This document shows, piece by piece, positions 12,254-50,884 of a stretch of 64,000 nucleotides of DNA (position 1 is the stretch's first letter; each line of letters begins with the position of its first letter). This DNA comes from Owenia fusiformis (taxonomy: Eukaryota; Annelida; Polychaeta; Sabellida; Oweniidae): positions 9,832,842 to 9,896,841 of the forward strand of contig CAIIXF020000011.1 in assembly GCA_903813345.2 (NCBI GenBank). The letters run 5' to 3'. The notes under the pieces were generated by a model, which searched no databases, was not told the DNA's origin, and saw nothing but the letters and a program-made list of their open reading frames with translations. The position numbers and the translations under genes were made by a program.

Positions 12254-12276
12254 ATCTTACTTGGAAATGCAAATTA

Positions 12277-13728
12277 AGGTGCTATGGAGGTTAACAGGAA
12301 ATGACAAAACAAAAAATGTCAAAACCATGCTGGATTTTGAAAATTTTTTGAATTTTTTTTATCATCTTTCATATTTATTGTAAGCACAAGTCATTTAGAT
12401 ACAATTACAAGGGGCAAAGCGCTGTAAGCATTAGATGTCCCCTTATATAAATAAACAATAAAGTACAATATTCATTTTAACCTGGATGTCACCTGTAAAT
12501 GGTAGAATGCCTTGCAATGAAACAAAAGATAGGAGGGCTGCTGATATCCTGGGGGGGGGGGGTAGTATGTTGAAAATTGGAAACAGGTCATAGGCAGGAA
12601 AATATTTAGATTCTGGTTGTGTTTTCAATGAGATAATTCGCAACCGGTGAAAATAGATTATCCATTTCTAATTGGGTTAATGATGGATCCCCAAAAAGAA
12701 AAAAGTGAATTTTGTCTTGCTGAGTTCTGAAATGAGTTAATAAGTCCCCATATATCCCTAAAGTATCTGTTATTAATTTATTTCTTTGTTGTTCTTTCAG
12801 AGGGCATTTGAAAAAGAAGTGGGGAAAAGTTTCAGGGGAACCACATAAACAATTTGATGACTCAACTGAGCTCCAATTGTGGGCTTTGAGCTGGGCTTTT
12901 AAAATTAAATCTACCCTGGCTCTATTCAGATAAAGTTCTTGTCGACGAGTTAATTTTAAACAAATTGTTGAAACAACACCAGGGAACAAATTTAATTTAA
13001 GTGTTCTTTTAAAAGATGCAATAGTTGGCAAGAGCTTTTGTTCCAAGGGAACAGATCCTGGATCATTCCATAGGTTCATCATTTTGTATATTGGAGACTT
13101 ACATATTTACATGACCGGTAACACAAGGAAAATGGTCAGAATGACCATAAACATGATGAAATAACCTTTTCAGCCCTCTGAAAATGTGACTGAAAAAAAG
13201 CTAAGAGTAGGTGCCCAGGAAAGGTCACCGAAGAGAATCTTTTGACTTTTTCAGAAAATGTGCCCAATATATTACTCTAAATGATACAATTTTAAAAAAT
13301 TCAGATCATTCTCAGAAAAAGAAAAAAATGAAAAAAAAACTGAATTTAAAATCAATCTATTTTCCTTTTAACTACAGCAATTGTAGTTTCAGACAATTTT
13401 TTAAAATTTCAAAGGTTGTATCATTTAGAGCGATATATTAGACACATTTTCTGAAAAAATCAAGAGATTCTTTTCATTGACCTTTCCTGAGCACCTACTT
13501 TTAGCTATTTTTCAGTCACATTTTCAGAGGGCTGAAAAGGTTATTTCATCATGTTTATGGTCATTCTGACCATTTTCCTTGTGTTACCGGTCATGTAAAT
13601 ATGTTGAACTAGTTAAACTGACTGGAGGTCCAACAGAACTCTGTCATCTTGGTTCAAAAAAAATTCAGAATCCAGCATGGTTTTGACATTTTTTTGTTTT
13701 GTCATTTCTGTTAACTTACATAGCACCT
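12277..13728. mobile_element. Foldback element X (TA-flanked), copy 1, carrying a LINE
   Basis: Left end AGGTGCTATGGAGGTTAACA and right end TTAACTTACATAGCACCT are inverted, and TA flanks both (12275-12276, 13729-13730). The arms run several hundred bases: 13130-13260 (CATGATGAAATAACCTTTTC, AAAATGTGCCCAATATA) mirrors 13430-13560. The left arm is broken by a LINE fragment at about 12350-13107. A second copy at 48685-50044 confirms the ends. No transposase seen; TA targets suggest a Tc1/mariner-type mobiliser. Confidence 0.75.
12350..13107 (-). pseudogene. Non-LTR retrotransposon C-terminal remnant with zinc knuckle
   Basis: The minus-strand frame from about 13106 to 12606 encodes MNLWNDPGSVPLEQKLLP, a Leu/Arg-rich stretch, then CLCGSPETFPHFFFKCP. 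This C-x-C...H...C knuckle followed by FFLFGDPSL and a final helical segment is the usual C terminus of many LINE ORF2 proteins. The 3' UTR holds a 13-base C run on the minus strand (+ strand G run near 12550) and ends in an A-rich tail at about 12350. The same layout occurs at 45351-45766, so both belong to one LINE family. It is truncated at the 5' end and sits in the left arm of element X. Confidence 0.8.
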
Positions 13729-13785
13729 TAAATTGCAAATTAAAATGTGTTGCATGAAACACATTGATGAATTTGTTCATACAAA

Positions 13786-48392: not shown

Positions 48393-48684
48393 GCCTAAAA
48401 AAAATAAAAGCGCCCACCTGGGTCACCTGCCCGCCTGTAAAATACAGGTAACCAATCTAAAACATATACATTTATCTAATACTTTTTGAAATATTACGCA
48501 TAAAAGGGAAGCATGGCACTGCTCAAGACATTTTGAAAGTCTCATGTTATTACACAGTTGCATACCCTTCTAATTGAAAGCCCATGATATTTACTTCCTG
48601 CGAAAGCTATTTAGATTTTGATATACTAGCTTTCCCACGGAGCATTTAGACAGCTGAATGATTTTGACCTTTGAAATCGAATTA

Positions 48685-50044
48685 AGGTGCTATGGAAGTT
48701 AACAGGAAATGACAAAACAGGAAGTGACAATTTTTTGCATTTTTAGATATTTTTTGAATAAAGATAACAGAGTTCTGGTTTGACCTCCAGTCAATTTAAC
48801 TATTTCCACATATCATTTACATGACCAGGATCACAATGTGCATGGTCAGAATGACCCTAAACATGATGAAATAACCTTTTTAGCCCTTTGAAAGTGTGAC
48901 TGAAAAAAAGCTAAAAGTAGGAGCGTAGGGATAGTCACTGAACAGAATCTTTTGAATTTTTCAGAAAATGTGCCCAATATAACGCTCTAACTAGTACTAT
49001 CTTTGAAATTTTAGAAAATTGTCTTAAACAAAAATGGCGGTCATAAAAAGGAAAATAGATCGCTTTTCAAATCAGTTTTTTCATTTTTTTTTCTTTTTCT
49101 ATGAATGATATCAAATTTTCAAAGATTGTATCATTTAGAGCAATATATTGGGCACATTTTGTGAAAAATTCAAAAGATTCTGTTCAGTGACCTTCCCTAC
49201 GCTCCTACTTTTAGCTTTTTTTCAGTCACACTTTCAAAGGGCTAAAAAGGTTATTTCATCATGTTTAGGGTTACTCACTTCGAGAGCCATGTTAGATTTT
49301 GAAACTTATGGCTCAAACGGAGAAGTGAACAGCTGATCAATAGTGACCTTTGAAATTGAATTAAGTCGATCCGCGGCTTACTTTTGGTCTCTAACTGTGT
49401 CTTACATCAGTATCATCAATCCGTGTAAGTATTGGAGCGCTGGAGTACTTCTTTTTCGATCAAGACTTGTAAATTGTTCATCGAGTTAAAGTTTTACAGA
49501 CCTATTTCCAATATGGCGGTTTGCTAGGTGCGAGATACGCAACGAACGAAATGAATTTTGAGAATTAGTTAGGTTCGGACAACCTCCGGAGATTTACGAA
49601 AATGTCCGAGCAGAAACCGCCATATTGGAATTTGGCAGTAAAACGATTCCCTTGACTAACAATTACAAGTCTTGATCGAAAAAGAAGTACTCCAGCGCTC
49701 CAATACTTACACGGATTGATGATACTGATGTAAGACACAGTTAGAGACCAAAAGTAAGCCGCGGATCGACTTAATTCGATTTCAAAGGTCACGATCATTG
49801 AGCTGTCCAAATGCTCCGTGGGAAAGCTATTATATCAAAATCCAAATAGCTTTCGCAGGAAGTAAGTTTAGGGTATTCTGACCATGCACATTGTGATCCT
49901 GGTCATGTAAATGATATGTGGAAATAGTTAAATTGACTGGAGGTCAAACCAGAACTCTGTTATCTTTATTCAAAAAATATCTAAAAATGCAAAAAAAATT
50001 GTCACTTCCTGTTTTGTCATTTCCTGTTAAGTTCCATAGCACCT
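48685..50044. mobile_element. Foldback element X, copy 2 (TA-flanked), inside Y
   Basis: AGGTGCTATGGAAGTTAACA at the left and TTAAGTTCCATAGCACCT at the right, with TA on both sides. The uninterrupted Y at 49351 reads GAATTAAGTCGATCCGCGG, which equals the rejoined flanks. Long arms match 12277-13728. It is itself split by the inner Y. Confidence 0.85.
49271..49865. mobile_element. Element Y, inner copy, inside X
   Basis: TTACTCACTTCGAGAGCC ... CGCAGGAAGTAA, flanked by GTTTAGGG on both sides (49263-49270, 49866-49873). The inner arms (about 110 bp, GGAGCGCTGGAGTACTTC) are near-perfect inverses; the outer arms are diverged. No transposase. The 8-bp duplication suits hAT, P or Mutator-like mobilisers. 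Confidence 0.85.
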
Positions 50045-50250
50045 TAAGTCGATTCGCGGCTTACTTTTGGTCTCTTACTGTGTCTTACATCAGTATCATC
50101 AATCCGTGTAAGTATTAGAGCGCTGAAAGAGCATTTGTAAGAGCTGTTCACTTCCCCGTTTGAGAGCCATAAGTTTCAAAATCTAACATGGCTCTCGAAG
50201 TGAGTAACATGATATAGTCTATATCACAAATCAAATCTGCATGTACATAC

Positions 50251-50659: not shown

Positions 50660-50800
50660 GGTATGCATACCTGCCAACCTACCGTATTTTTACGGGAATC
50701 TACCGTAATTTTTTCGTTTTTTCCGTAAAAAATGACGAACTACCGTAAAAAATACCATTTTTCTCCCGTCTACCGTAATTTTTTTTTTAAGGTGACTGTT
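50660..50800 (-). repeat. ACGGGA-type repeat fragment
   Basis: GCATACCTGCCAACCTACCG then several TACCGTAA(T/A) words; the complement of the terminal part near 45180-45270. It lies upstream of FAM162 exon 1. Confidence 0.7.
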
Positions 50801-50884
50801 AACTTAATCGATTTTCAGAAAAAATTGAAAATTTCACAATCTTGAAATTTTCAAACTCTTCCTGAGAAGTCGTTTTTTAAGAAA

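Follow-up and report, generated by a model that had tools for sequence, protein, structure and literature searches.

Nests of transposons are common, and nested non-autonomous DNA transposons (MITEs) in introns are known from many plant and animal genomes. Several described groups of such elements are close to the two families reported here. Members of the hAT superfamily include MITEs that are flanked by 8-bp target duplications, and non-autonomous Kolobok members duplicate the sequence TTAA when they insert. The P-element MITEs, for example those of Anopheles gambiae, are short, gene-less and flanked by 8-bp duplications (PMC1562414). A search of the literature on transposons of Owenia fusiformis returned only general MITE papers.

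Here we describe a segment of about 1.6 kb in the window, which is the whole stretch of 64,000 nucleotides of O. fusiformis DNA that was analysed. Like other nested intronic MITEs, the locus consists of an element within an element within an element and can be dated by its own junctions. It differs from them in that the outer and inner elements belong to the same family (Y), with a member of a second family (X) between them; otherwise there is no difference of principle. We conclude, with a probability of about 95%, that two MITE families made three successive insertions in intron 1 of the FAM162 gene. As a record that dates itself, the nest gives clean evidence that two transposon families have been active in this genome. 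Y and X are additional MITE families of familiar type, and their nesting is unremarkable; a class of very short Y copies, described in the last section, is a more useful lead than the nest itself.

Architecture of the nest

The segment is a true nest of three short, gene-less cut-and-paste elements, one within another (Table 1). As the initial annotation had read from the sequence, the outer Y stands between exact copies of CATGATAT, and the inner Y lies within X between its own duplications. The most informative junction is found where X interrupts the outer Y. The inner Y carries the unbroken site GAATTAAGTCGAT, and in the outer Y the same site reads GAATTAA, then X, then TTAAGTCGAT; from these flanks it follows that TTAA was duplicated by the insertion of X. 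The contrast between intact and split site was noted directly in the initial annotation and does make the insertion and its duplication visible inside the window, but the target had been given as TA, whereas the duplicated bases are the four of TTAA. After the inner Y and its duplication are subtracted, X is 755 bp long.

Table 1. Features of the nest and of the adjoining part of FAM162 (window coordinates).
Feature	Position	Strand	Basis or remark
Outer Y, left target duplication, 8 bp, CATGATAT	48583..48590	.	read from sequence
Outer Y including nested elements	48591..50207	-	own pieces 48591-48685 and 50044-50207, with one TTAA copy assigned to either side
Left TTAA, X duplication	48682..48685	.	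sequence; TTAA on both sides in other X copies
X, long-inverted-repeat MITE, ends GGTGCTATGG...CCATAGCACC	48686..50043	+	sequence and solo copies
Inner Y, left target duplication, 8 bp, GTTTAGGG	49263..49270	.	read from sequence
Inner Y, 595 bp	49271..49865	+	2/595 positions differ from 20-copy consensus
Inner Y, right target duplication, 8 bp, GTTTAGGG	49866..49873	.	read from sequence
Right TTAA, X duplication	50044..50047	.	read from sequence
Outer Y, right target duplication, 8 bp, CATGATAT	50208..50215	.	read from sequence
FAM162 intron 1 splice donor, GTATGT	50250-50245	-	read by eye
FAM162 exon 1 frame, last base	50251	-	open frame and in-phase splice
FAM162 intron 1 far end; exon 2 start after CAG	~40181; ~40180	-	by eye; phase matching

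When X is removed, the outer Y aligns with the inner Y as a member of the same family, as had been proposed. The alignment also reveals two differences: the outer Y is inverted relative to the inner Y, and about 358 bp of its interior are missing, with 16 bases (50126-50141) standing in their place. On the Y consensus in reverse orientation, its pieces align with positions 0-173 and 531-597.

Host intron and predicted RNA folding

The nest occupies the beginning of FAM162 intron 1, which is approximately 10,070 bases long. Its position near the exon 1 donor had been recognised correctly, but 35 rather than 36 intron bases separate exon 1 from the outer duplication, and the element proper begins 43 bases into the intron. 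Exons 2 and 3 were matched on the minus strand in a tblastn search with a human FAM162A sequence (E values of 6e-4 and 5e-5). The joined exons match Pfam family PF06388 (DUF1075) with an E value of 7.3e-24 over residues 75-168 of 169, a match that covers the part encoded by exons 2 and 3. Exon 1 alone matched no protein family, and its putative assignment is based on its open frame and on a splice that keeps the phase.

The inverted arms of the nest had been expected to form strong hairpins in the pre-mRNA, and structure prediction bears this out. When folded as pre-mRNA, the 1,617 bases of the nest have a predicted free energy of -972 kcal/mol, compared with -436 kcal/mol for a single control segment, equally long and taken from this intron too. 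The folded nest includes an uninterrupted helix of 117 bp formed by the X arms. Other than lengthening the intron by sequence that folds strongly, the nest probably has no effect.

Two dispersed MITE families

Solo copies of both families, each with its own duplications, are found elsewhere in the genome. A whole-genome search (498 Mb) with the Y sequence gave full-length matches at 99-100% identity in 40/40 scored places, the window included, from 1,060 candidates. Twenty copies were fetched from the 39 places outside the window; all are top matches and thus biased to young copies. Every one of the 20 is 597 bp long, and 18 have exact 8-bp duplications. A 575-base X query was matched over its whole length at 98-100% in 41 places (1,837 candidates, 40 scored), except that one of these 41 matches misses the first base of the query. 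Both ends were located in 18 of the 20 X loci fetched, and all 18 have TTAA on both sides.

The exact X-end pattern occurs 567 times in the genome and the exact Y-end pattern 1,114 times, while neither pattern occurs when read backwards; these frequencies are therefore not due to chance. With lengths of 597 bp for Y and about 758 bp for X, both families have the inverted arms, constant duplications and hundreds of ends by which MITEs are recognised. The arms of X are about 330 bp long and 96% complementary, and with arms of this length X comes close to being a single long hairpin.

Several further observations concern insertions at TTAA. An older X copy (about 83%) lies in the window at 12274-13731 with TTAA on both sides. 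It is split by an insert of about 750 bp, which holds a 165-aa frame weakly similar to a reverse-transcriptase zinc-binding domain, below the family cut-off. At 12 places (for example L026 and L034), an X has inserted into the TTAA close to the end of a second X, compared with 567 exact ends; seven of these places are exact and five have one mismatch, with one side of the site counted. By a rough estimate, made without a count of TTAA sites, this arrangement is far commoner than a random choice of TTAA would give. In L073, a further copy of Y, the TTAA that X hit is occupied by an element of another TTAA family, whose first bases are GGTGACTGTTAACTT. The first 91 bases of that element, TTAA included, are identical to window positions 50787-50877, a stretch that lies 5' of the exon 1 frame of FAM162.

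The string CATGATGAAATAAC (48862-48875) in X equals the start of the Drosophila P-element end. It was considered as a separate insertion and rejected: the flanking arms run on both sides of it, and it is also present in another X copy (L030). The string recurs as an inverted copy in X. The match to the P-element end is probably a coincidence.

Candidate transposases

Each family would be moved by a transposase that is encoded elsewhere in the genome and recognises its ends. None of the loci read showed a transposase gene that bears the ends of X or Y; these loci comprised 10 of the 11 P-domain (PF21788) matches, 10 of the 113 piggyBac-domain (PF13843) matches, 10 of the 115 PF20700 matches together with three further places, and all eight MULE (PF10551) matches. 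These P, piggyBac, PF20700 and MULE loci were scanned for ends with up to three errors; the hAT profile (PF05699) has 138 matches in the genome. At L041, a P-type gene has an X copy (about 84%) next to it, which is taken as a separate insertion; the other X or Y end matches at transposase loci, with three errors each, are taken as chance. Facing Y pairs of 836-2,371 bp (L071-L076) and one X pair (L061) were considered as parents and set aside, as their frames are short (157 aa at most). Four additional X stretches were compared with X and Y only: L062 proved to be an X interrupted by about 9.1 kb, L065 an X with about 240 extra bases, and L063 and L064 are halves of one 11-kb stretch with several X pieces.

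X is most likely moved by a Kolobok-type transposase. It shares the TTAA target duplication of non-autonomous Kolobok members, both in the 18 two-ended copies and in the window. All 18 of these copies begin with GG and end with CC, where the ends had been sought with a GG-starting pattern and up to 3-4 errors, such that strongly deviating ends would escape. Ends of the form 5'-RR...YY-3' beside TTAA are the mark that sets Kolobok apart from piggyBac, according to PMC9587614. X differs from Kolobok in its long arms, which make it almost entirely hairpin.

It is improbable that X is instead a piggyBac-type MITE, even though piggyBac likewise duplicates TTAA and its domain is well represented in the genome. 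The GG...CC ends of X carry the Kolobok mark, and the C-starting ends next to TTAA that are a criterion for piggyBac are absent from X. At the piggyBac loci, the best TTAA-flanked inverted ends start with C in 5 of 10 cases (L051, L054, L055, L056 and L058), one of which also shows a weaker end pair starting with AA. Moreover, ends of X beyond 3-error matches are lacking at all 10 piggyBac loci read. For the favoured Kolobok-type transposase, PF20700 was chosen as a possible proxy, and ends of X beyond 3-error matches were likewise lacking at the 10 PF20700 matches and three further places named above.

Two observations were made on PF20700 sequences in their own right. On C313, C418, C443 and C513, a 711-aa PF20700 protein is encoded in head-to-tail arrays, mostly with a spacing of 3.3-3.8 kb. 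These arrays are loosely reminiscent of the KolobokP multimers treated in PMC9587614, which names O. fusiformis among the carriers. At L147 (1297-2788), the 8-bp repeat TCTGGACG stands beside 12-base inverted ends with at most two mismatches. A 535-aa PF20700-like frame falls for the most part within this region and extends past one end of it; the structure is either a separate element or chance.

Y would be moved by some transposase that cuts with an 8-bp stagger and favours palindromic targets, and the candidate superfamilies are P, hAT and Mutator/MULE. Among 57 copies with exact duplications, the target context is palindromic around the 8 bp, with A at -5 (0.67), T at -2 (0.56), A at +2 (0.68) and T at +5 (0.74), and with A or T also at -4 and +4. 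The length of the duplication agrees with the P superfamily (18/20 exact), but the Y ends, TTACT...AGTAA, are not known to resemble any P end; P ends begin with CA. The same length is shared by hAT MITEs. The hAT duplication has the form nTnnnnAn, although other hAT groups have different patterns, and Y is unlike this form, with T at position 2 and A at position 7 in only 0.35 and 0.23 of the 57 duplications, respectively. Eight of the hAT matches lie on C1 below 32.3 Mb, and in a comparison by eye no listed Y end comes within 100 kb of any of them.

Order, age and alternative readings

The order outer Y, then X, then inner Y is fixed by the nesting. A Y element first inserted in FAM162 intron 1, making the 8-bp target duplication. 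X then entered this Y at TTAA, and a younger second Y finally inserted into X with an 8-bp duplication of its own. Divergence from the family consensus, which is 10/239 for the outer Y, 5/755 for X and 2/595 for the inner Y, agrees with this order. The figure for the outer Y may in part reflect a subfamily difference and not age, because older Y subfamilies exist.

Two other readings of the segment were weighed against three successive insertions. It could be an assembly artefact in which repeats were collapsed or misjoined, and the hundreds of identical-sequence ends in both families would lend themselves to such errors. However, each of the three insertions is bordered by an exact duplication of the type seen in its family elsewhere, and a misjoin is not expected to yield the right duplication at three levels. 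The nest also has exon 1 of FAM162 on one side and exons 2 and 3 on the other, with the exons on one strand. These findings make an artefact very improbable. That the whole 1.6-kb stretch is one larger element, with the 8-bp and TTAA repeats internal to it and with the long inverted repeats of some foldback elements, is scarcely credible given that solo Y and solo X copies occur at many separate places, each with its own duplications, and that the site split in the outer Y is unsplit in the inner Y. The sequence of events put forward in the initial annotation is shown by the junctions, and the solo copies of both families remove the one larger element that had been named there as its possible refutation.

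Very short Y copies

The listing of Y ends, which covers the first 100 of 1,114 (C1, 0-32.3 Mb), contains 36 pairs that face each other within 5 kb, and 28 ends are without a partner. The shortest pairs measure 59, 69, 69, 73 and 76 bp; these are followed by pairs of 448 and 476 bp, by a cluster at 578-603 bp and by pairs of 836-2,371 bp. All five short pairs have exact 8-bp duplications. When a 69-bp Y sequence was used as the query, 40/40 scored places from 1,137 candidates matched over 63-77 bp, in a set that is biased towards the length of the query. The gap in length between short and full-length copies is not absolute: the outer Y of the nest, which is about 255 bp long without X, is an intermediate deletion.

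Both ends could be placed in 42 of 44 short loci (L066-L070 and L079-L117), whose sizes are 59-77 bp. All eight duplication bases agree in 30 of these 42 copies, seven of eight in four, and fewer in the remaining eight. In an ungapped count, the copies retain 33-40 bp at one end and 21-39 bp at the other. The lowest figures for the latter end (21, 23 and 27 bp) come from four copies with small changes close to it, and the remaining 38 copies retain 28-39 bp there.

The 31 short copies without apparent inserted bases have 12 distinct junctions, and the other 11 show 1-11 apparent extra bases that stem partly from small end changes. No junction lies further than about 40 bp from either end. The two sides of the junction overlap by at least three bases in 21 of the 42 copies; breakpoints drawn at random within this zone would give such an overlap in about 9% of cases. 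In the commonest junctions (69, 71 and 74 bp), the three ATA positions of one end are joined, as judged by eye, to the ATA of the other end. Random breakpoints over the element would make 0.2% of deletions this short, or 0.5% of those with an overlap of at least three bases. Five of the seven listed pairs of 59-476 bp are this short (P of about 1e-10 or less if independent), where the 476- and 448-bp copies, one diverged and one rearranged, may not be simple deletions.

The presence of identical junctions at 10 places had raised the possibility of a clonal 69-bp mobile element. This possibility is weakened by the ATA-to-ATA joins at 69, 71 and 74 bp, and also by the diagnostic variants, TGTGG and a change of C to A at position 7, which the short copies have in common with full-length older Y subfamilies. 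Because these variants occur in full-length older subfamilies, the short copies most likely have many separate origins, and recurrent deletion now seems the better reading of the short-copy sequences.

Either Y end is predicted to fold into a hairpin with a loop of 13-15 bases, and the junctions of the short copies fall at these loops or up to about 5 bases past them, which points to structure-guided deletion. Such deletion could occur by slippage across the long inverted arms or, alternatively, by end joining of transposase-protected ends. Taken as a whole, the proposal that Y, in at least two subfamilies, collapses repeatedly by structure-guided deletion to twin-end remnants of 59-77 bp, in which about 28-40 bp of either end and the duplication beside it survive, is tentative, and we consider it possible but doubtful.

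With their readable junctions, the short Y remnants provide a natural experiment on the deletion of long palindromic transposons, and they bear on the minimum length at which a transposon is still able to move. Should some of them remain mobile, they would count as exceptionally small among the transposons of eukaryotes. In the literature, as far as its texts were available, we recognised no description of very short MITEs or of such deletions; evidence that the short Y class is novel is weak. One locus outside the count (L125) resembles a further short Y copy.
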